Of a stretch of 15,928 nucleotides of DNA, positions 2,095 through 15,928 are shown in pieces. A model generated the notes under the pieces. The model saw only the letters and a list, made by a program, of their open reading frames with translations. It was not told the DNA's origin and ran no database searches. How positions within the stretch are numbered: position 1 is the first letter of the stretch; each line of letters begins with the position of its first letter. The translations under genes were made by a program, and so were the position numbers. Origin of the DNA: Spirochaetota bacterium (GTDB lineage: Bacteria; Spirochaetota; Spirochaetia; SZUA-6); NCBI GenBank assembly GCA_003641675.1, contig QNBI01000008.1, positions 1 to 15,928 of the forward strand, in the 5' to 3' direction.

Positions 2095-3021
2095 TTAGCT
2101 TATCCTGATTTTCGGATTTAGGAGGCTGTACAGTATATCCACAAGAAAGTTGATAAGTGAAAAGATTAGTGCTACAAAAACAACTCCTCCCTGAATAAGG
2201 GTAAAATCTCTCTGATATATTCCGGTAAGAAAAAGCCTTCCGAGTCCCGGCAGAGAGAATACCTGTTCTATTATAATAGCACCGCCTAACATGTAGCCGA
2301 ATTGGATACCGGAGACTGTCACTACTGGGATGAGAGCATTTTTTAGTGCATGTTTATATTTTACGAGCCGTTCTGTAAGTCCCTTTGCTCTGGCCGTTAT
2401 AATATACTCTTTGCTCAGTTCTTCCACCATCGATGCCCTGGTGAGCCTTAGTATTATTGCGGCACGTGCAAAGCCCAGAGAGAGGGCCGGAAGAATAAAA
2501 TTCTTTATACTTCCTATACCGAAAAGAGGGAATAGATGTATTTTAACTGCAAAAAGCAAAAGGAGAATTATCCCGAGCCAGAAACTAGGGATTGCCATGC
2601 CGAGCTGTGAGAGAAACATCCCGAAGTAGTCTATTAAAGACCAGCGTTTAACTGCAGAGAGGACGCCTATGGGAATAGCAATAAGCATACCAAGGATTAT
2701 GCCCAGGGTTGCAAGGGTAAGTGTAATGGGAAATCGTCTCAATATCTGTTTTGTAACGGACTGGCCTGTAATCATAGAATTGCCGAAATCAAATGTTGCT
2801 ATATCCTTTAGCCATGAAGCATACTGAACCGCTATCGGCTTATCCGTACCTATTTTTGCACGGATAGCCGCAACATCGGCATCTGTTGCGTCTATTCCTG
2901 CGATAACTGCTGCAGGGTCGCCTGGAATTATCCTTATTACAAAAAAAATAATTGTGGAAATAAGAAGAATTGTTAGAATGAGTCTGGCAAATCTCTTTGC
3001 TATGAACATCATTAAATGCAT
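2095..3021 (-). CDS. Peptide/nickel-type ABC transporter permease, B-type (DppB/OppB-like)
   Basis: Inner-membrane channel subunit of the importer. The 308-residue protein has the DppB layout. There is an N-terminal membrane helix (about 12-30) followed by the IIPGDP motif, then a periplasmic stretch with the family FDFGNS motif (about 77-82). Five further hydrophobic segments lie between residue 98 and the C-terminus. The cytoplasmic EAA-type loop sits around 205-225 (EYIITARAKGL) and contacts the ATPases. ATG at 3021 is chosen because AAGGA lies 5 bases upstream; later Met codons (residues 4 and 5) lack that spacing. First gene of the operon. A C-type permease normally follows directly, but here the D-type ATPase comes next. 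Confidence 0.93.
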   Translation of the reverse strand: MHLMMFIAKRFARLILTILLISTIIFFVIRIIPGDPAAVIAGIDATDADVAAIRAKIGTDKPIAVQYASWLKDIATFDFGNSMITGQSVTKQILRRFPITLTLATLGIILGMLIAIPIGVLSAVKRWSLIDYFGMFLSQLGMAIPSFWLGIILLLLFAVKIHLFPLFGIGSIKNFILPALSLGFARAAIILRLTRASMVEELSKEYIITARAKGLTERLVKYKHALKNALIPVVTVSGIQFGYMLGGAIIIEQVFSLPGLGRLFLTGIYQRDFTLIQGGVVFVALIFSLINFLVDILYSLLNPKIRIS

Positions 3022-3042
3022 ATATATCCTTATTAATACAGT

Positions 3043-3070
3043 ATTTTACATAAATATAACTATTGTGCAA
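3043..3070 (-). promoter_or_regulatory. Candidate sigma-70-type promoter for the ABC importer operon
   Basis: On the minus strand TTGCAC (3070-3065) and TAAAAT (3048-3043) are separated by 16 bases and lie about 22 bases upstream of the permease start. A perfect inverted repeat, TGCAAT-ACG-ATTGCA (3066-3080), overlaps the -35 element and could be an operator. It sits in the 82-base gap after the upstream hydrolase gene, so the importer may be transcribed separately. Confidence 0.5.
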
Positions 3071-3103
3071 TACGATTGCAGTGAAATATATGACAAAAAT
3101 GGG

Positions 3104-3835
3104 TTAAAGCCTAATTTTAAGTGCAGTCCGGGCGAGCGTGATATTCCCTCTGTAATATTCTCCTGCTTCCTCTCTTAATCTTTCATGATTACCATAACGC
3201 GGCAGGTGAGTTAGAAGAAGCGCTCCGACATCTGCCTCTGCTGCAAGTTTACCGGCTTGAGCTCCGGACATATGGCCTTCTACTTTTCCCTCATATTCTC
3301 TGTAAAGGCTCGCTTCGCAGAGCAGTATATCGGCATATCTGGAAAAGTCGGTCAGCTTGTCAAAATATTCTGTATCGGCTGTATATACCGCTGTTTTGCC
3401 GTAATGTGTTATTTTTACGGCCATACATATCTCCGGGTGGACCGTTTTTATAAAACTAAAACTGAAATCCCCGATTGCAATTTCCGATTCCTCCCTTAAT
3501 GCAATCCCCTCTGTGTAGTCTTCGAAGGTTAAGGATTCGAATTGACTGTGTTTACTGTATGCATAGATAGGCAGGTTCCTATCCCTTTTATGCTGCAGGC
3601 TTTCTAGCATTACTGCATACTGCAGACAGTGAATATCCGCTACATGGTCGGCGTGATAATGGGATAATATAACAGCGTCAAGATTTGAAATTTCAATATG
3701 TTTCTGAAGCTCCGATAAAACGGCCGATCCGCAGTCGAGTAGAATATTTGTGTTTCTATCCTGAAACAGATATCCGGAAGTTGCCTCGCCTGCAGCCGGA
3801 TATGCCCCCCAGTATCCAAGTACAGTAATCTGCAA
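3104..3835 (-). CDS. Metallo-beta-lactamase-fold hydrolase (YhfI/RNase Z-like)
   Basis: Predicted cytoplasmic, two-metal (probably zinc) hydrolase of 243 residues. The hallmark HYHADH motif is at 59-64 and further metal ligands fit H133, D154 and H210. The N-terminus (VLGYWGAYPAAGEATSGYL, about 5-23) resembles the YhfI-like branch of the RNase Z-related superfamily. The GHMS segment around H188 is also typical. The protein is shorter than true tRNase Z and I see no exosite arm, so tRNA processing is not implied; phosphodiester or cyclic-nucleotide hydrolysis is possible. The start is TTG (3835), supported by AAGGA 7 bases upstream and by the conserved strand beginning right there. It is divergent from adenosine deaminase and upstream of the importer operon on the same strand. 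Confidence 0.85.
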   Translation of the reverse strand: MQITVLGYWGAYPAAGEATSGYLFQDRNTNILLDCGSAVLSELQKHIEISNLDAVILSHYHADHVADIHCLQYAVMLESLQHKRDRNLPIYAYSKHSQFESLTFEDYTEGIALREESEIAIGDFSFSFIKTVHPEICMAVKITHYGKTAVYTADTEYFDKLTDFSRYADILLCEASLYREYEGKVEGHMSGAQAGKLAAEADVGALLLTHLPRYGNHERLREEAGEYYRGNITLARTALKIRL

Positions 3836-5229: not shown

Positions 5230-8200
5230 ATGGCTGGTAAAACTGTAATGATAGATGGAAACACAGCTGCGGCGACAGTTGCGCATGCTACTAACGAAGT
5301 TATTGCTATTTATCCTATAACTCCTTCTTCGCCAATGGGGGAATTGTCCGATTATTTTTCCGCTAAGGGAAGAAAAAACATATACGGGACTATTCCGGTT
5401 GTTGTAGAAATGCAGTCGGAGGGAGGTGCTTCCGGTGCGGTGCATGGAGCCTTAACAACAGGAGCTTTGACAACAACTTTTACCGCATCTCAAGGATTAT
5501 TGCTCATGATTCCGAATATGTTTAAAATTGCGGGAGAGCTTACATCTACGGTGTTTCATATTGCGGCCCGTTCAATTGCCGCACAGGCGCTCTCTATTTT
5601 CGGTGATCATACCGATGTAATGACGACAAGGAGTGCGGGATTTGCCTTTTTAGCTTCCAACTCCGTTCAGGAGGTTATGGATTTCGCCCTTATTGCCCAG
5701 GCTTCTACTCTGGAAACCCGCATTCCGTTCCTGCATTTTTTTGACGGATTCAGAACGTCGCATGAAATACAGAAGGTGCAGGAAATTTCGTACGATGAGA
5801 TGAGAGCTGTTATTAATGAAGATGCTGTTTTTGCACATCGGATGAGAGGTCTTAATCCGGAAAAGCCTGCAATTAGAGGTACTTCACAGAACCCCGATGT
5901 TTTCTTTGCTGCAAGAGAAACAGTTAATAAGTACTATTTAGCAGCTCCGGATATTGTTGAGTCGGTTATGAACCGCTTTGGTTCTGTTGTCGGCAGGAAA
6001 TACAGACTGTTTGATTATGTCGGTGATCCTTCGGCGGAGCGTGTTGTTGTTATGATGGGTTCGGGAACGGAGGCTATGGATGAAACTGTACGCTTTTTGG
6101 CTGACAAGGGAGAAAAGGTCGGATTAATTAAGGTAAGACTCTTTAGACCCTTTAGTAGTAAACACTTTATTAATGCACTTCCTTCTACTGTAAAGGCTAT
6201 TGCAGTTCTTGACAGAACAAAAGAGCCCGGTGCTATAGGTGAGCCGATTTATGAAGATGTAAGATCCTCCATCGGTGAAGCAATGCGCAACGGAAGTCTT
6301 AAAATGGATTACCCGCATATAGTCGGAGGCAGATACGGGCTCGGTTCAAATGAGTTTAATGCAGGGATGGCAAAGGCGGTTCTCGATAATCTTAAAGAGG
6401 ATAAACCAAAGAATCATTTTACAATTGGAATCCACGACGACGTAACCCATACAAGCCTAGAATGGGACGATAATTTTTCAGCGGAACCTGCAGGGGTTCA
6501 TAGGGCTGTATTTTTTGGCTTAGGCGGTGACGGCACTGTTGGTGCAAATAAGAATTCAATTAAAATAATAGGTAAAGCAACTGATAATTACGCCCAAGGA
6601 TATTTTGTGTACGATTCTAAAAAATCCGGTGCACTCACAATTTCACATTTGCGGTTTGGTAAGGAGCCTATTAGGAGCACCTACCTTATTCAGAAGGCAA
6701 GTTTTGTTGCCTGCCATAAGTTCAGCTTTTTGGAGAAGGTGGAAATGCTCAATAAGCTGGAGAAAAACGGGACGTTTCTCTTAAACTCTCCCTACAGTAA
6801 AGATGATATCTGGGATTATCTGCCTGTGGAAGTTCAGAAGGAGCTTATAGACAAAAATGCCAAATTCTATCAGATTCATGCAAATAAAATTGCAGAGGAT
6901 GCAGGTTTAGGTTCACGCATTAATGTTATACTCCAGACCGCTTTTTTCCTTATTTCAGGAATTCTTAAAAAGGATAAAGCAATCGAGCTTATAAAGAAAT
7001 CCATAGAGGATACATACGGCAGGAAGGGTGAAGATATTGTTGCCATGAACATGAAAGCTGTTGAGACTGCAATTAACAGCATAGAAGAGGTTAAATATCC
7101 TAAAGAGGTGCGGGGAGATATTCACATAAAACCTCCGGTGCCGAAAACTGCCCCTAAATTTGTACAGGAAGTCACAGGTGAAATAATTGCGGGAAGAGGC
7201 GATAAAATTCCTACATCAAAATTGCCGGAAGACGGAACATACCCTTCCGGTACTACAAAGTACGAAAAACGTAATGTGGCAGAATACATACCTGTATGGG
7301 ATCCGGAAACATGTATCCAGTGTGGCGAGTGCGCCTATGTGTGCCCTCATGCTGTAATAAGGATGAAAGTCTACGATGAGAAAAGCTTAAAAGGTGCTCC
7401 TAAGGATTTTAAATCCACAGATGCAAAGGGAAGAGAATTTGCCGGTCTAAAATATACCCTGCAGATTTCTCCGGAAGACTGTACGGGCTGCGAGCTCTGT
7501 GTAAATACATGTCCTGCTTTTAAAAAAGAGAATGGCGTTAAAACAGACAGGAAAGCTATTAATATGGAATCGTATCTTCCCATAAGGGAACGTGAAGTCG
7601 AAAATTACAAATTCTTTGAAAGCCTTCCGGATACAGATCCTAAACTTATAAAGAGAGATTCAATAAAAGGGTCTCAGTTTCTTACTCCTCTCTTTGAGTT
7701 TTCCGGTGCATGTGCAGGATGCGGTGAAACCCCGTATGTAAAGCTCATGAGTCAACTCTTTGGTGACAGAGCTGTTATTGCAAATGCTACCGGGTGTTCA
7801 TCGATCTACGGAGGTAATTTGCCTACAACCCCGTATACAGTTAGAAGCGATGGAAGAGGCCCTGCATGGTCCAATTCTCTCTTTGTAGATGCTGCAGAAT
7901 TCGGGTTTGGGATGAGGCTTACAAGTGATAAACTCACAGAGTTCGCCTATGAACTTGTTGGCAGGTTTATTAAGGAAGGTGGTAATGGTGTTGATGTTAA
8001 TTTGCTCAAAGAGATATCCGGGGCGGATCAGTCAACTCAGGAAGGGATAGAACAGCAGAGAGAACGTGTTGCAGCACTTAAGAAACAGCTCGGCAGTGCA
8101 AAGAGTGAGGTGGCTAAACAGCTCCTTTCATCTGCAGACTACCTAATTAAGCGCTCTGTATGGATAATAGGAGGCGACGGATGGGCCTATGATATAGGCT

Positions 8201-8799
8201 ACGGCGGGCTGGACCACGTTATAGCTTCCGGTAGAAATGTTAATCTCTTGGTGCTTGATACTCAGGTTTATTCCAATACAGGAGGCCAGATGTCAAAAGC
8301 AACCCCGGTAGGAGCTGTTGCAAAATTCGCCGCTGCCGGCAAGCCTTTGCAGAAGAAAGATTTAGGTTTAATGGCTATGAGCTACGGTAACGTATATGTA
8401 GCCCGTGTTGCGATGGGAGCAAATAAGATACAGACACTGCGTGCATTTATAGAGGCTGAAAACTACAATGGGCCTTCGGTAATTATTGCTTACTCGCATT
8501 GTATAGCTCATGGAATTGATATGTCTCTAGGGTTAAATCAGCAGAAGCTTGCTGTTCAATCCGGAGCCTGGAATATATTCCGGTATAATCCGGTACTTGC
8601 TGAGCAGGGGAAAAACCCGCTTAAATTGGATTCCAAAGAGCCGTCTATCGATATTTCAGAGTACATGAACAATGAGATACGGTTTAGATCTTTAAAGAAA
8701 ATAGACCCACAACGTGCGGAGAAACTCCTGGAGCTTGCACGAAAAGAGGCGCAGGAGAAGTATAAGTATTTTAAGTATCTTGCAGACAGGCCTTATTAG
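5230..8799 (+). CDS. nifJ: Pyruvate:ferredoxin (flavodoxin) oxidoreductase, single-chain
   Basis: Converts pyruvate and CoA to acetyl-CoA and CO2, passing two electrons to ferredoxin or flavodoxin; the central energy step of anaerobic fermentation. At 1189 residues it is a full-length, single-polypeptide enzyme. The N-terminal pyrimidine-binding domain has T31, E64 and R114 at the positions known for substrate and thiamine contact in the Desulfovibrio enzyme. The middle domains are complete. The two-cluster ferredoxin domain has C695/C698/C701/C705 and C751/C754/C757/C761. The proximal 4Fe-4S cluster ligands are C828, C831, C856 and C1091. The thiamine diphosphate motif GGDGWAYDIG starts at 981 and ends near N1016. 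All key residues are present, so activity is expected. It is monocistronic between a promoter at 5161 and a terminator at 8832. Confidence 0.97.
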   Translation: MAGKTVMIDGNTAAATVAHATNEVIAIYPITPSSPMGELSDYFSAKGRKNIYGTIPVVVEMQSEGGASGAVHGALTTGALTTTFTASQGLLLMIPNMFKIAGELTSTVFHIAARSIAAQALSIFGDHTDVMTTRSAGFAFLASNSVQEVMDFALIAQASTLETRIPFLHFFDGFRTSHEIQKVQEISYDEMRAVINEDAVFAHRMRGLNPEKPAIRGTSQNPDVFFAARETVNKYYLAAPDIVESVMNRFGSVVGRKYRLFDYVGDPSAERVVVMMGSGTEAMDETVRFLADKGEKVGLIKVRLFRPFSSKHFINALPSTVKAIAVLDRTKEPGAIGEPIYEDVRSSIGEAMRNGSLKMDYPHIVGGRYGLGSNEFNAGMAKAVLDNLKEDKPKNHFTIGIHDDVTHTSLEWDDNFSAEPAGVHRAVFFGLGGDGTVGANKNSIKIIGKATDNYAQGYFVYDSKKSGALTISHLRFGKEPIRSTYLIQKASFVACHKFSFLEKVEMLNKLEKNGTFLLNSPYSKDDIWDYLPVEVQKELIDKNAKFYQIHANKIAEDAGLGSRINVILQTAFFLISGILKKDKAIELIKKSIEDTYGRKGEDIVAMNMKAVETAINSIEEVKYPKEVRGDIHIKPPVPKTAPKFVQEVTGEIIAGRGDKIPTSKLPEDGTYPSGTTKYEKRNVAEYIPVWDPETCIQCGECAYVCPHAVIRMKVYDEKSLKGAPKDFKSTDAKGREFAGLKYTLQISPEDCTGCELCVNTCPAFKKENGVKTDRKAINMESYLPIREREVENYKFFESLPDTDPKLIKRDSIKGSQFLTPLFEFSGACAGCGETPYVKLMSQLFGDRAVIANATGCSSIYGGNLPTTPYTVRSDGRGPAWSNSLFVDAAEFGFGMRLTSDKLTEFAYELVGRFIKEGGNGVDVNLLKEISGADQSTQEGIEQQRERVAALKKQLGSAKSEVAKQLLSSADYLIKRSVWIIGGDGWAYDIGYGGLDHVIASGRNVNLLVLDTQVYSNTGGQMSKATPVGAVAKFAAAGKPLQKKDLGLMAMSYGNVYVARVAMGANKIQTLRAFIEAENYNGPSVIIAYSHCIAHGIDMSLGLNQQKLAVQSGAWNIFRYNPVLAEQGKNPLKLDSKEPSIDISEYMNNEIRFRSLKKIDPQRAEKLLELARKEAQEKYKYFKYLADRPY

Positions 8800-9967: not shown

Positions 9968-10659
9968 ATGAAGAAGAAAATGCTTTTATTTCTAGGGCTC
10001 ATACTTATAGTGGGACTCTTTCCTCTAATGGCGAAAGGCCAGGAAGAGATAGCTACAGGACCGGCAAGTATTGAAGTTTACTACTCTGTGGCAGTAGATG
10101 CACCCATTGCAAAGATGCTTAGCGGTTATATTGCTGCATTCGAAAAGGATAATCCTGCAATCACTGTAAAACCTGTATTTTCGGGAGGTTACGGCGATAC
10201 TAAGACAGCCGTACAGACTATACAATAGAGGGGGGCGGGAAAGCTCCGGCTATGGCTGTTCTGCTGGCCACGAACCTATATGACCTAATTAATGCGGACT
10301 ATATAGAGCCTTTGGACAGTTACTTAAACGTACTAAAGGACAAGAACGGTTATATGGATGATTTCTTTAAGGCATTTCTTGAAAATTCTCGTTATGACGG
10401 GAAAGTTTGCTGCCTTCCTTTTCAGCGTAGCGCTGTTGTAATGTACTACAATAAAAACCTTTTTAAAAATGCAGGGCTTTCGGCACCTGACAGCTGGGAT
10501 TCATGAGGCGAAGCGGCCGCTAAACTGACAAAACGTTCGGGTTCACAGGTTACAAGATGGGGTATTCAGTACCCTTCAGGATGGCCATCTGGTTGTTTCA
10601 ACCCCTCGCTATAGGTGCAGGAAGGAATATAGTGGGAGATTCCGATACGGAAGTTTACT
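9968..10659 (+). pseudogene. Decayed sugar ABC transporter substrate-binding protein gene (UgpB-like, family 1), 5' part
   Basis: Begins normally, with AGGAGGT 5 bases before ATG and a Sec signal peptide (hydrophobic core about 5-20, cleavage probably near AKG at 22-24). The family 1 periplasmic binding protein fold can then be followed through three lesions. First, a frame change near 10219-10222 (one base lost or two gained), between KTAVQT and IEGGGKAP. Second, an in-frame TGA at 10504-10506, probably a former TGG, between DSWDS and GEAAAKL. Third, a loss of one base near 10588, between IQYPSGWPS and WLFQPLAIGAG. After about 230 codons, at TEVY, the sequence switches to the end of a permease gene, so roughly half the protein is missing. 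No functional product is possible; the intact stretches still allow the family call. Confidence 0.85.
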
Positions 10660-10919
10660 TGTTGCGCCGCTCCACGCTGTTTATCTCAACAATCGCTTTT
10701 ATCGGGGCTTTCCAGACGGTAGATCATATTTTTGTTCTGACGCAAGGTGAGCCCAGCGGTTCAAGTACTGTCCTGTTGTATTACCTGTGGCAGGAAAGGT
10801 TCGAAAATCTCGATATCGGAAAGTCATCCGCTTTGACTATAATTCTTATCGTAATACTTCTCATTTTCACTATAACGAATTTTCGAATAACCGAAGAAAA
10901 GGGGGAAAGGAATGCTTAA
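10660..10919 (+). pseudogene. 3' remnant of a sugar ABC transporter permease (UgpA/MalF-like)
   Basis: About 86 codons remain of a permease that is usually near 290-300 residues. They encode the end of the EAA region (LLRRSTLFISTIAFIGAFQ), the family LTQGEPSGSSTVLLYY segment, and a final membrane helix (TIILIVILLIFTI) before a charged tail. The start of the gene, with its first membrane helices, is gone. It has been joined by deletion to the truncated binding-protein gene near 10659. Its stop overlaps the start of the next permease gene by 8 bases, as in an intact operon. An ATG at 10557 opens the same frame but belongs to out-of-frame binding-protein sequence, so it is not a real start. Confidence 0.85.
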
Positions 10920-11574
10920 GAAGGCATTCTCTCTTGCCCCTTTCGGAAGGTATTACTTTAATACAATTTTTATCGTAATTCTAATATTTGCCGTTCAGCT
11001 TGTAACCATCACAATCGGGACTTTTGCCTTTGTAAACTATAAGTTTGTTGGTCACAGGGTGGTATTGTTTTTTATACTGCTTCAGCTCATGATCCCGCCT
11101 TCTGCTCTGCTAATACCGAATTTTGCAACAATCTGGTTTTTAGGCTTATTCAATACAAAACTGGCAATAGTGCTTCCCTATTTCGGTTCTGCTTTCGGTT
11201 TATTTTTAATGAGACAGGCATTTCTGGGTGTGCCAAAATCCCTTGTACACGCAGGCATTATAGACGGCTGTTCGTGGTGGCAGCTTCTTATCCATATATA
11301 TCTTCCGCCCTCGATACCTATTCTAATCGCCTTTGGGCTTTCTTCTATAACGTGGCATTGGAATGACTTTTTATGGCCACTAATAATAATCAATTCACCT
11401 AAAGCGCGGCCTTTAACGGCAGGACTTGTAAGATTTACTCAATTGGGTGAGATTGGAGCACGGTGGTCTCTGCTTGCTGCCGCCACAATTATTGTCATAG
11501 CACCGTTGTTTTTTGCGTTTTTAATATTTCAGAAGAGGTTTATTCAGTGTTTTATTAACTCCGGTATAAAGTAG
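10912..11574 (+). pseudogene. N-terminally deleted sugar ABC transporter permease (UgpE/MalG-like)
   Basis: The open frame gives 220 residues, whereas family members are about 270-290. After MLKK the protein jumps to AFSLAPFGRYYFNT, which in relatives lies about 70 residues in. The first membrane helix and first periplasmic loop are therefore missing. The other helices are present. The EAA loop that docks on the ATPase reads LVHAGIIDGCSWWQLL, where the usual Glu of EAA is His and the second Ala is Gly. Start ATG 10912 has a GGGGGAAAGGA tract upstream and overlaps the previous stop. The frame is open to the natural C-terminus. With its partner permease and binding protein destroyed, I treat it as a non-functional remnant, though a protein may still be made. 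Confidence 0.75.
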
Positions 11575-13034: not shown

Positions 13035-13063
13035 TTGACAAACTGTGTTAAACTTTATAATAT
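13035..13063 (+). promoter_or_regulatory. Near-consensus promoter for the STAS-PspA cluster
   Basis: A perfect TTGACA (13035-13040) and TAATAT (13058-13063) are spaced 17 bases apart. This is among the strongest promoters in the window. The predicted leader, about 13070-13125, contains a possible two-part hairpin (13076-13108): ATAGG/CCTAT outside and CTTCC/GGGAG inside. It ends in the ribosome binding site AAGGGG just before the ATG. Confidence 0.7.
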
Positions 13064-13125: not shown

Positions 13126-13674
13126 ATGAATAATAATATAGTGCCAGGTTTTGATGACGAAAAAGATGACAGCCTGAAAATAAGATTACAAAAGATAGAC
13201 GATATAGACGGATGTCTTGTAATGTATCTTTCAGGGTATATAGATACGTATAATTCCAACTATTTTCAGAAAAGGGTTGCAAAGGCAATAGAGGCTGGAT
13301 TTATTAGGCTTATTTTCCACTGCGGAAGCTTAAACTATGTTTCCAGTACAGGTATAGGGTCGTTCACAGCTTTTTTAAAAGCTGTGAAGCCGAGAGGGGG
13401 CGATCTGGTACTGCTCGAGATACAGCCCAAAGTGTATGAAGTCTTCCAGCTTTTAGGATTTTCCCAGTTTTTCAATATAAAAGAAAATTTGGAAGAGGCG
13501 GTTCAGTTTTTCAGCCAGAAAAAGGAGGCGGGACACGAAGGGCCGTTCCCCAAAATATTTAAGTGCCCGATTTGCGGAAAAAAACTCAAAGCTACAAAAG
13601 CCGGCAGATTCCGTTGTTCCGAATGCAAAACAATACTTGTCATAGATAATGCAGGGCAAGTTTTTCTTGGTTAA
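13126..13674 (+). CDS. STAS-domain protein with C-terminal zinc ribbon (anti-sigma-antagonist-like)
   Basis: The STAS domain (about 18-130) has the fold of SpoIIAA/RsbV anti-sigma factor antagonists: strand VMYLSGYIDTYN, then strand LIFHCGSLNYVSSTGIGSF. S73 or S74 sits where those proteins carry the phosphorylated serine. Unusually, it is followed by a separate C-terminal domain (about 145-180) with two CxxC pairs (C147/C150 and C164/C167), a rubredoxin/zinc-ribbon pattern that probably binds one zinc. The ribbon could bind a protein, nucleic acid, or sense metal or redox state. No anti-sigma kinase or sigma factor is encoded beside it. AAGGGG lies 4 bases before ATG. First gene of a four-gene plus-strand cluster with PspA. 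Confidence 0.82.
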   Translation: MNNNIVPGFDDEKDDSLKIRLQKIDDIDGCLVMYLSGYIDTYNSNYFQKRVAKAIEAGFIRLIFHCGSLNYVSSTGIGSFTAFLKAVKPRGGDLVLLEIQPKVYEVFQLLGFSQFFNIKENLEEAVQFFSQKKEAGHEGPFPKIFKCPICGKKLKATKAGRFRCSECKTILVIDNAGQVFLG

Positions 13675-13719
13675 TTGTTTCTATCCTTCGGTTTACATCT
13701 AAAATAGGAGCTATCCCTT

Positions 13720-14118
13720 ATGAGCAGTGAAGATAAAATAGAAAGATATCTTGTCCGACTTTCTCTTTCCTATGAAAAACTAGATGGGAACAGCTGGCTA
13801 ATTAATGACGGGGAAAAAGGACTTGAGAATGTTGTTGTAATTTCGGCAGGTCCGCTGGTTATTGTCAGGGTAAAGGTAATGGAAATACCGGATAATAATA
13901 AGAAAAAATGTGAGCTTTTCGAAACCCTTCTGCGCTTAAACGGCTCCGACATGATTCACGGGGCTTATGCTTTGGAAAAAAATAGTATTATAATGATTGA
14001 TACTCTGGAAGGTGAAACCATGGACATTGAAGAGCTGCAGGCATCTTTGGATGCTTTTGGTCTGGCTTTAGCTCAGCATTATAAGGCATTATCACAGTAC
14101 AGAATAAAAACTAACTAG
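13720..14118 (+). CDS. YbjN-like / secretion-chaperone-fold protein
   Basis: Small acidic cytoplasmic protein of 132 residues with no signal peptide or membrane helix. The pattern is an N-terminal helix (KIERYLVRLSL), a beta sheet (SWLINDG, NVVVISAGPLVIVRVKVMEI), a helix (CELFETLLRLNG), further strands (GAYALEKNSIIMIDTLEG) and a long C-terminal helix. This fits the YbjN domain, which shares its fold with type III secretion chaperones, and suggests a protein-binding or chaperone role. AGGAG lies 9 bases before ATG. It begins 45 bases after the STAS gene and ends 12 bases before pspA, so it is clearly in the same operon. The family call rests on pattern recognition and is moderate; a stand-alone hypothetical protein is the alternative. 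Confidence 0.6.
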   Translation: MSSEDKIERYLVRLSLSYEKLDGNSWLINDGEKGLENVVVISAGPLVIVRVKVMEIPDNNKKKCELFETLLRLNGSDMIHGAYALEKNSIIMIDTLEGETMDIEELQASLDAFGLALAQHYKALSQYRIKTN

Positions 14119-14130
14119 GAGATTTCTCAT

Positions 14131-14835
14131 ATGGGAATATTTAGTCGTTTTAAAAGAGCCGTAAAAGCTAATTTAAATGATATGATAAGCAGGGCGGAAA
14201 ACCCTGAAAAAATGCTCAACCAGCTCATACAGGAAATGAATGAACAGCTTATTCAGGCAAAAAAACAGGTTGCCCAGGCGATTGCCGATGAAAAAAAACT
14301 GGAAAGAGAAATACGAAGAAATAAAGCCGCGGCAGAGGACTGGGAACAAAAAGCTGTACTGGCTGTAAAGGCGGGAAAAGATGACCTTGCTAAGGAAGCG
14401 CTTGTAAGGCAGAAGGAATACAACGATTATAACGTGCAGTACCGTAGTGAATGGGAAGCCCAACATAGTACGGTGGAAAAATTAAAGGAATCACTACGTC
14501 AGCTTCAGGTTAAAATAGATGAGGCACAGCGCAAAAAGAATCTATTAATAGCCAGAGCGAAGCGGGCGGAGGCACAGAAAAAAATTCAGGAAACTATGGG
14601 GAGTATTGCAGATACATCTGCCTTCGATGCTTTTGACAGAATGTCCCATAGGGTGGAACAGCTTGAGATGGAAGCAGAGGCGGCGGAAGAACTGGGACAG
14701 ATAGGTGAGGCTTCAAAGGAAGATAACAGTATAGAAAAGCAGTTTGAGGAGTTGGAAGCATCGGATTCCAGCGCTGATAAAATGCTCGAAGAGTTAAAAA
14801 AGAAAATATTAAAATTAGAGGATAAACCCTCCTGA
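14131..14835 (+). CDS. pspA: Phage shock protein A / IM30 family protein
   Basis: Peripheral membrane protein that oligomerises on the inner face of the cytoplasmic membrane and protects it when integrity or proton motive force is threatened. The 234-residue protein is of normal PspA length. The N-terminal amphipathic helix is present (MGIFSRFKRAVKANLNDMI, 1-19), followed by the family segment AENPEKMLNQLIQEM (about 22-36). A long coiled coil runs to about residue 150, and a helical, acidic C-terminal half follows. There is no C-terminal extension of the Vipp1 type. AGGAG lies 9 bases before ATG. No pspF, pspB or pspC is nearby, so regulation is expected to differ from the enterobacterial Psp system. 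Its TGA overlaps the apparent CTG start of the next gene. Confidence 0.92.
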   Translation: MGIFSRFKRAVKANLNDMISRAENPEKMLNQLIQEMNEQLIQAKKQVAQAIADEKKLEREIRRNKAAAEDWEQKAVLAVKAGKDDLAKEALVRQKEYNDYNVQYRSEWEAQHSTVEKLKESLRQLQVKIDEAQRKKNLLIARAKRAEAQKKIQETMGSIADTSAFDAFDRMSHRVEQLEMEAEAAEELGQIGEASKEDNSIEKQFEELEASDSSADKMLEELKKKILKLEDKPS

Positions 14836-15446
14836 GCATAACTGTTAATATAGTCTGTACAGATACTTTTAAAAGCGAAGAGCTTAGGCACAGTTTAAAA
14901 TCCGATAATAACTATAGTTTTTTAATTTCCGATTCCCCTATTAAAGATCAGGATGTGGATATATATGTACTCCCTGTTGAGAAAATTCCGGAAAATGGTT
15001 TCCTATACCCCTTTATAGTGTACGGGGCGAGAGAATTTTTAGAAATAGCGGTGCTTAAAGGCTGTAAAGATTACATTAGAGAGCCCTGGGGCAGGGAAGA
15101 ACTTTTATTCAGGGTCCAAAAAGCTGTTTCCGGTCTGGCCAAGGTGAAAACCGGGGATGAGTCTGCTTTTATTGTTTTAGACGGCAAGCTTATGTACGGC
15201 GACAGGAAAGTTTCCTTAAGTTTTCCGGAAGCTCTTGTTTTTAGGGTACTTCTTGCTAATACGAGCAAACTGGTAAGCCGTGAAGCACTGTACTATACAT
15301 TATGGGGAAAGCTCCCTTCGAAAGGGAGCAGAGTAATTGATGTACACATTTCTTCTTTAAGGAAGAAACTTAAATATCTTAGAAAGGATAAGGGATACAA
15401 TGCAATAAGGTCTGTAAGGGGCTACGGTTACCTCTTTACCGGCTGA
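14832..15446 (+). CDS. OmpR-type winged-helix regulator with degenerate receiver, probable CTG start
   Basis: The C-terminal half (about 110-203) is a clear OmpR/PhoB DNA-binding domain: LSFPEALVFRVLLAN, then LYYTLWGK, the recognition helix in VIDVHISSLRKKLK, and the closing wing IRSVRGYGYLF. A GTG at 14955 could start it, but the frame is open upstream and encodes the first part of a receiver-like fold (SITVNIVCTDTF, SDNNYSFLISD). That half lacks the active site: the phospho-acceptor Asp aligns with P48 in DIYVLP, the Thr with Gly in IVYGAR, and the Lys with Glu in YIREPW. The full frame has no ATG, GTG or TTG before 14955. CTG at 14832 overlaps the pspA stop as CTGA and has GAGGA 9 bases upstream, giving 204 residues. 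Phosphorylation-independent control is inferred. Confidence 0.78.
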   Translation: MSITVNIVCTDTFKSEELRHSLKSDNNYSFLISDSPIKDQDVDIYVLPVEKIPENGFLYPFIVYGAREFLEIAVLKGCKDYIREPWGREELLFRVQKAVSGLAKVKTGDESAFIVLDGKLMYGDRKVSLSFPEALVFRVLLANTSKLVSREALYYTLWGKLPSKGSRVIDVHISSLRKKLKYLRKDKGYNAIRSVRGYGYLFTG

Positions 15447-15469: not shown

Positions 15470-15784
15470 TTACTCACATATTACAGCTGTTCCGTATACG
15501 AGAAGTTCGGCGGCTGCCTGCATAACGGAAGTAGTTGTAAACCTCATTGCGACTACCGCATTTGCACCTTTCTGTTCCGCCTCTTCTATTAGCCTGTCGA
15601 TAGCCTGCTCACGGGCTTCTGCCATCATCTTTGTATAATCGGTGATTTCTCCGCCTACCATATTTTTAAACGCAGCCATTACATCTCTGCCTATATTTCT
15701 TGAGCGTATGGTATTCCCCTTAACGAGGCCCAAAACAGTTTTAATTGTTTTTCCCGGAATATTATCGCTGGTGACGAGAATCAT
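15470..15784 (-). CDS. YbjQ/UPF0145 family protein (putative heavy-metal-binding domain)
   Basis: A 104-residue protein of the YbjQ family, whose members form compact pentamers; the biochemical role is unsettled despite the name heavy-metal-binding. Typical features are the opening VTSDNIPGKTIKTVLGLVKG (4-23), RSRNIGRD (27-34), the central helix with MMAEAREQAIDRLIEEAEQKGANAVV (about 53-78) and the final strand LVYGTAVI. Start ATG 15784 has AAGGAG 7 bases upstream and overlaps the stop of the upstream membrane protein gene by 4 bases (ATGA). It converges on the response-regulator gene, leaving a 23-base gap with no visible terminator hairpin. Confidence 0.9.
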   Translation of the reverse strand: MILVTSDNIPGKTIKTVLGLVKGNTIRSRNIGRDVMAAFKNMVGGEITDYTKMMAEAREQAIDRLIEEAEQKGANAVVAMRFTTTSVMQAAAELLVYGTAVICE

Positions 15785-15928
15785 CTTATAACTCCTTTAT
15801 AATTATCGTTTTTACTCTCTTTAATTCTATCAGTAATGCTTACCGACAGCAATATGATAAAACCAAGTGCTAATCCCCCTATTATTATTTTCAGGATGAT
15901 TTCCGTTTCGGGAGAAACAAATAACTGA
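15781..15928 (-). CDS. C-terminal end of a small membrane protein (partial, runs off right edge)
   Basis: An open minus-strand frame enters from the right edge and ends in TGA at 15783-15781, overlapping the ybjQ start as ATGA. The 48 visible residues contain a single strong membrane helix (IILKIIIGGLALGFIILLSV, about 10-29). A basic, polar cytoplasmic tail follows (DRIKESKNDNYKGVIR). The tight overlap indicates translational coupling with the YbjQ-family gene. No start codon lies in the window. I do not recognise a named family. A single-helix membrane partner for the YbjQ pentamer is a reasonable inference. Confidence 0.7.
   Translation of the reverse strand, partial: QLFVSPETEIILKIIIGGLALGFIILLSVSITDRIKESKNDNYKGVIR

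Follow-up and report, generated by a model that had tools for sequence, protein, structure and literature searches.

A 15,928-nucleotide (nt) stretch of DNA from a Spirochaetota bacterium of the class Spirochaetia (contig QNBI01000008.1, assembly GCA_003641675.1), hereafter the window, carries four closely spaced genes on its forward strand between positions 13126 and 15446. They code for a protein that combines a STAS domain with a zinc ribbon (STAS-zinc), a small protein of the CesT/Tir type, a PspA protein, and an OmpR-type DNA-binding regulator whose receiver-like domain lacks the residues used in phosphorylation (Table 1). This cluster is a real and new arrangement of known parts, and it is conserved in many spirochaetes. 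To explain the arrangement we tentatively favor, at a little short of an even chance, a unit with two halves, wherein a partner-switching STAS-zinc protein is co-transcribed with a PspA-CesT module and a phosphorylation-independent regulator.

All four genes named in a preliminary description of this DNA are present, with their families supported by Pfam, and the unit proved to be kept in relatives. We fetched 110 loci, 80 of them the most similar in STAS among 424 and 30 the best PspA matches, the window itself included; not all are independent, and near-copies occur among them (78 different STAS rows among 103). Two culturable, non-pathogenic spirochaetes, Gracilinema caldarium (L057) and Breznakiella homolactica (L091), are represented in this set. 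A STAS gene was found in 108 loci, the other two (L026 and L028) being without it in the available stretch, and it is present in 28 of the 30 loci retrieved through PspA only. Downstream of STAS in the 108 loci lie PspA in 96, the regulator in 93 and CesT in 69, where a locus was scored as lacking PspA if none was found within 3 kb downstream of STAS. The gene sets that follow STAS are CesT-PspA-regulator (59 loci), PspA-regulator (26), CesT-PspA (10) and PspA alone (1), and the remaining loci have the regulator alone (8) or none of these genes (4, three of which have little sequence left). This gene order recurs across loci more than by chance. STAS-zinc is the most conserved member of the cluster, with about 80% identity among the sampled loci: the median identity to the window is 81% for STAS (107 loci), 61% for PspA (97), 53% for CesT (70) and 33% for the regulator (85).

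The circuit had been put forward as possibly undescribed, which holds for the arrangement of its known parts and fails for the CesT-PspA dyad, which is already published (Ravi et al., 2024; PMC11237479). The word STAS is absent from the main text of that article. Searches for literature on a STAS domain with a zinc ribbon in spirochaetes, or joining STAS with PspA or a pseudo-receiver, returned nothing on topic, judging by their listings.

The near-consensus promoter proposed at 13035 stands through its conservation in relatives. Taken as a site of the window by itself it does not stand out, promoter-like sites there being no more frequent than in shuffled sequence (11 found, 11.3 expected); the site gains weight because it is conserved in relatives, and on that ground only. 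Of 76 non-redundant regions upstream of STAS, 71 contain TTGACA, where 3.6 would be expected (100 of 105 regions if redundancy is kept). Across the 76 regions, TTTGACAAA is preferred at the conserved site, and a -10 element mostly follows 15-17 nt on. Upstream of the operon, sigma-54-like sites score like shuffles, with a best score of 9/11 (L100) among the 105 regions. A separate motif, GCCGATA, occurs on the + strand upstream of STAS in 17 of the 76 non-redundant regions, against 0.65 in mononucleotide shuffles, in Treponema-like loci such as L045, L049 and L091. It resembles a sigma-28 -10 element, but TAAA is found 14-16 nt from it in only 1 of the 76 regions.

The C-terminus of STAS-zinc holds a ribbon of four cysteines (C147, C150, C164 and C167), on which every zinc-ribbon Pfam model falls below its cut-off. 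A structure alignment places the Asp-Ser pair of SpoIIAA on Ser73-Ser74, and the serine aligned with Ser74 is the SpoIIAA phosphosite. Among 143 STAS rows, Ser73 is present in all, Ser74 in 141 and the four cysteines in 141 (the conservation alignment counts residues one lower than we do here). Overall, STAS-zinc is best read as a partner-switching protein that is switched by phosphorylation and does more than serve PspA.

The distribution of STAS-zinc extends well beyond that of PspA in one family of the phylum, f29. We surveyed 296 genomes sampled from the phylum with a STAS threshold stronger than 1e-50, counting families by hand; the survey listing omits 24 genomes without a STAS match. 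Strong matches occur in 48 f29 genomes, and 47 of these have no PspA over the cut-off; in the one that does (G307), PspA lies apart from STAS. A 1.14-Mb f29 genome (G113) has kept STAS-zinc and lost PspA. The promoter accompanies STAS rather than PspA, because a TTGAC[AT] box is kept upstream of STAS in six of eight f29 loci (L134, L136, L137, L139, L140 and L173; not L135 or L138). Another 19 genomes of the class, counting that of the window, also have strong STAS matches, and all but one of them (G339), 18 in number, have PspA; the small f24 genomes listed in the survey have no STAS match. Another spirochaete Psp arrangement is seen in G033 (locus L174) and other f14 genomes, each with two PspA genes and no STAS-zinc gene.

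Relatives of STAS-zinc in other spirochaete classes sit within partner-switching operons. Their orthology is judged by similarity only: those that bear the ribbon share 39-64% identity across most of their length, and the STAS proteins of L167 and L170 fall below this range. Among 19 such loci, a SpoIIE gene directly precedes STAS in 10 (L146, L147, L161, L162, L163 and L167-L171), and an RsbW-type ATPase directly follows it in nine, the same loci minus L170. The SpoIIE proteins of L146 and L147 carry Cache-HAMP domains (Pfam). In six of the 19 (L146, L147, L161, L162, L168 and L169) the next gene after RsbW codes for pyruvate:ferredoxin oxidoreductase (PFOR), and L163 and L171 stop at a contig end; in this SpoIIE-STAS-RsbW-PFOR operon a partner-switching module adjoins PFOR. 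A PFOR gene is also present in the window, not adjacent to STAS. Pyruvate, phosphate dikinase (PPDK) precedes STAS in L142 (Pfam), L165 and L166; open reading frames of the same length do so in L143, L144, L145 and L149, and other genes in L148 and L164. No kinase or phosphatase gene lies beside the STAS gene of the window. SpoIIE domains are found in 35 of 37 genomes searched, with three each in the window's own genome and G113. The own genome has one REC-HATPase over the cut-off (contig C417), and G113 has one weak match to an RsbW-type ATPase (4.6e-4).

At the other end of the cluster, the regulator probably starts at CTG 14832, in a CTGA overlap with the pspA stop codon, and not at GTG 14955, as judged from the sequence and a structural model. 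The same overlap occurs in six other loci (L007, L017, L031, L032, L048 and L067, some of them near-copies), and an ATG stands at the overlap start in L027 and L039. The model from 14832 has a mean predicted local distance difference test (pLDDT) score of 91.3, block scores of 91 and 96, and a first strand at residues 3-8. Database entries for the regulator and its closest kin are 163-168 amino acids (aa) long, so that part of the receiver-like domain would be cut off. The predicted protein has a receiver fold and an OmpR-type winged helix-turn-helix, and it has neither a phosphorylatable Asp nor the conserved Lys: Pro48 occupies the place of the phospho-Asp and Glu84 that of the Lys. The earlier claim of a receiver without phosphorylation residues holds across the family, since among 68 members the phospho-Asp place holds Pro in 54 and Asp in seven, and Lys is never found at its place. 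Pfam Response_reg matches none of 47 family members. That this is an ordinary two-component regulator phosphorylated by an unlinked kinase is therefore highly improbable.

The second gene had been described as coding for a YbjN-like chaperone-fold protein. The fold was correctly named, YbjN sharing it, and the family is instead CesT/Tir (PF22550); YbjN as a family name was rejected, the match to PF10722 (0.013) lying under the cut-off. Membership in DUF2170 (YjfI/BacA) was likewise not found, as a Pfam scan up to an E value of 0.1 returned PF22550 and PF10722 only. The PspA assignment is firm at the level of Pfam, and the protein scores 165.9 bits where the NCBIfam pspA equivalog cut-off is 242.95. 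In the window the CesT and pspA genes are 12 nt apart, in relatives CesT lies directly before PspA, and none of the 69 loci with CesT downstream of STAS lacks PspA. It is probable from this gene neighborhood that the CesT-fold protein is a partner of PspA, likely its chaperone. The solved fold nearest to its model is BacA. Pseudomonas BacA is encoded before the PspA-like BacB, and an interaction between the two is given as unpublished (PMC10948618).

These features can be joined as follows. One transcript from a housekeeping-type sigma-70 promoter would carry both functional halves. In the first, STAS-zinc would act like an anti-anti-sigma factor, with a kinase and a SpoIIE/PP2C phosphatase setting the state of Ser74, and its ribbon would carry the output by contact with RNA polymerase, nucleic acid or another protein; as a core spirochaete protein it would have targets beyond PspA. 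In the second, PspA would serve as a membrane-repair module, with the CesT-fold protein holding or delivering it. The regulator, translationally coupled to pspA via the stop-start overlap, would bind DNA as a phosphorylation-independent OmpR-type factor, would probably be gated by binding STAS-zinc or the PspA-CesT pair, and would exert feedback or control envelope genes outside the cluster. We infer the phosphorylation of Ser74, the binding of CesT-fold protein to PspA and all targets of the regulator; coupling between the STAS half and the PspA half is plausible.

Several observations weigh against the two-half reading. The flanks of the cluster are syntenic too: 38 of 50 loci have an NtrC-like gene at most 4 kb upstream and 32 have a gene labeled c5, and the downstream presence of PspA (53 of 61 loci) and the regulator (52) is little above this upstream synteny. 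Because the whole neighborhood is highly syntenic, gene order alone is only a moderate to weak argument for functional coupling. A conserved operator for the regulator was not found, the upstream alignment being conserved at the -35 and -10 columns only. The Asp that precedes the phospho-serine of SpoIIAA is Ser73 in STAS-zinc, and the STAS proteins of the SpoIIE-STAS-RsbW operons in L168 and L169 have no ribbon. Two candidates for a universal partner were also rejected. Close relatives of the RsbW encoded in the SpoIIE-STAS operons turned up in only 4 of 60 genomes, the window's not among them. The REC-HATPase of the own genome is full-length in the four f1 genomes and a few of other classes, with full-length relatives in G001-G003, and not in f29.

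The synteny of the flanks agrees with co-location without coupling, in which STAS-zinc is an independent core gene under a promoter of its own and CesT-PspA-regulator a separate module in a slowly rearranging region. We regard this as a fair possibility and the less probable account. The f29 genomes with STAS and no PspA speak for it, as does the variable gap between STAS and the next gene (12 to 181 nt across loci). Against it, the four genes are still together in the window's genome although its nearest relatives have other upstream neighbors, no terminator-like + strand site was found between the four window genes, and PspA directly follows STAS even in 27 loci without CesT. On the side of the two-half reading, loss of PspA amounts to five changes on the STAS tree, at least three of them on supported branches; the regulator does not follow, and the pairs are too few for a sign test.

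The preliminary description had further proposed that PspF-type control of pspA is replaced here by STAS-zinc together with the degenerate regulator, and that the CesT-fold protein perhaps serves as adaptor. Its premise that the classical partners are missing is correct at the locus, and in the own genome, whose assembly is 82% complete, neither PspC nor a PspF over the cut-off was found (17 sub-threshold enhancer-binding proteins, the best at 295 of 443.55 bits); PspB and LiaRS were not searched for. Among 24 genomes comprising PspA-bearing relatives and the own genome, PspC occurs in one, and LiaF-like_C is over the cut-off in 12, away from the operon, and absent from the own genome. The absence of PspC and of an above-cut-off PspF from the own genome, the lack of a sigma-54 site upstream and the regulator's presence in 93 of 108 STAS loci favor PspF replacement. 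The occurrence of STAS-zinc without PspA in f29, and beside SpoIIE/RsbW in other classes, makes it less likely. STAS and its promoter box are retained where PspA is missing, the regulator is kept in the eight loci with neither PspA nor CesT nearby and is missing from 11 with PspA, and the -35 element is already consensus, such that an activator would be unneeded. Overall we consider replacement of PspF quite unlikely. The NtrC-like gene common upstream of STAS (for example in L138, at 2452-3579) codes for a sigma-54 activator with a weak receiver match.

Envelope-stress control of the cluster might alternatively come from the adjoining convergent operon of an extracytoplasmic function (ECF) sigma factor, a zinc-finger anti-sigma factor and YbjQ. 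These genes come next in the close relatives L154-L156, and the zf-HC2 gene runs off the end of the window; a YbjQ match is, however, found in only 14 of 110 loci (13 plus the window), and the promoter is sigma-70-like, which leaves this explanation very unlikely. Elsewhere in the window, at 9968-11574, sugar ATP-binding cassette (ABC) transporter genes seem broken or condensed.

Table 1. Positions of the four-gene cluster, its promoter and other features of the window.
Feature	Position	Strand	Evidence or remark
Sigma-70-type promoter	13035..13063	+	TTGACA 13035-13040; TAATAT 17 nt on (TATAAT 15 nt on)
STAS-zinc ribbon protein, 182 aa	13126..13674	+	Pfam STAS 3.1e-22, residues 25-125
Likely phospho-acceptor Ser74 of STAS-zinc	codon 13345-13347	+	alignment with SpoIIAA
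CesT/Tir-type (YbjN-fold) small protein, 132 aa	13720..14118	+	Pfam CesT_Tir_1 PF22550 8.1e-26
PspA/IM30 protein, 234 aa	14131..14835	+	PF04012 3.4e-51
Regulator, 204 aa from probable CTG start	14832..15446	+	receiver-like residues 1-102; OmpR-type winged helix-turn-helix residues 125-202; Trans_reg_C 7.3e-15
Convergent YbjQ gene and C-terminal end of zf-HC2 anti-sigma gene	15470-15928	-	ECF sigma gene next in L156
PFOR gene	5230-8799		4.3 kb upstream of STAS
Sugar-binding-protein pieces	9968-10228, 10252-10506		
Permease piece	10557-10919		followed by permease

Repair by the ESCRT-III-like protein PspA is best understood under the control of PspF or LiaRS. If the two-half reading is true, a partner switch together with a regulator that lacks the standard phosphorylation site would constitute another wiring of envelope repair. 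STAS-zinc itself is at least equally striking for its high identity across loci and its retention in the 1.14-Mb genome that has lost PspA, and the searches made here turned up no partner for it. Identifying its kinase and target would give access to a protein at the regulatory core of a phylum with important pathogens. A broader speculation, which we hold to be unlikely, is that STAS-zinc is a near-universal spirochaete hub, ancestrally set by SpoIIE/RsbW beside PFOR and PPDK and rewired in Spirochaetia to PspA-CesT and the pseudo-receiver regulator; envelope repair would then be gated directly by metabolic or energy state, by way of protein contacts rather than through PspF or a two-component kinase.

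Each part of the cluster has counterparts among known systems. With SpoIIAA/RsbV switching (SpoIIE or RsbU, STAS, RsbW), STAS-zinc shares the STAS domain and a predicted phospho-serine position, and its relatives sit in SpoIIE-STAS-RsbW operons of other spirochaete classes; it differs in its added zinc ribbon, in having no adjoining kinase or phosphatase gene, and in the Ser that replaces Asp before the serine. The regulator can be likened to HP1043 (PDB 2hqr) and RitR (5vfa), which work without Asp phosphorylation, share the receiver-like and winged helix-turn-helix domains, and are both among its Foldseek matches, whereas its receiver model has no second and third helix and its sequence family is confined to these loci here. 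The classical Psp (pspF-pspABC) and Lia systems have PspA as effector in common with the cluster, which in contrast to Psp has no sigma-54 promoter, and no PspC or above-cut-off PspF in its own genome, and in contrast to Lia has no LiaF or LiaRS beside the operon; classic pspABC is noted in some spirochaetes in PMC11237479. The window's CesT and pspA genes fit the CesT/Tir-PspA dyad operons described there (Ravi et al., 2024). In the BacA-BacB operon, according to PMC10948618, BacA is a DUF2170 protein with a sigma-54 promoter, whereas the window protein belongs to PF22550 and has a sigma-70-type promoter. What sets the window dyad apart from both kinds of operon is its neighbors, STAS-zinc and the regulator.
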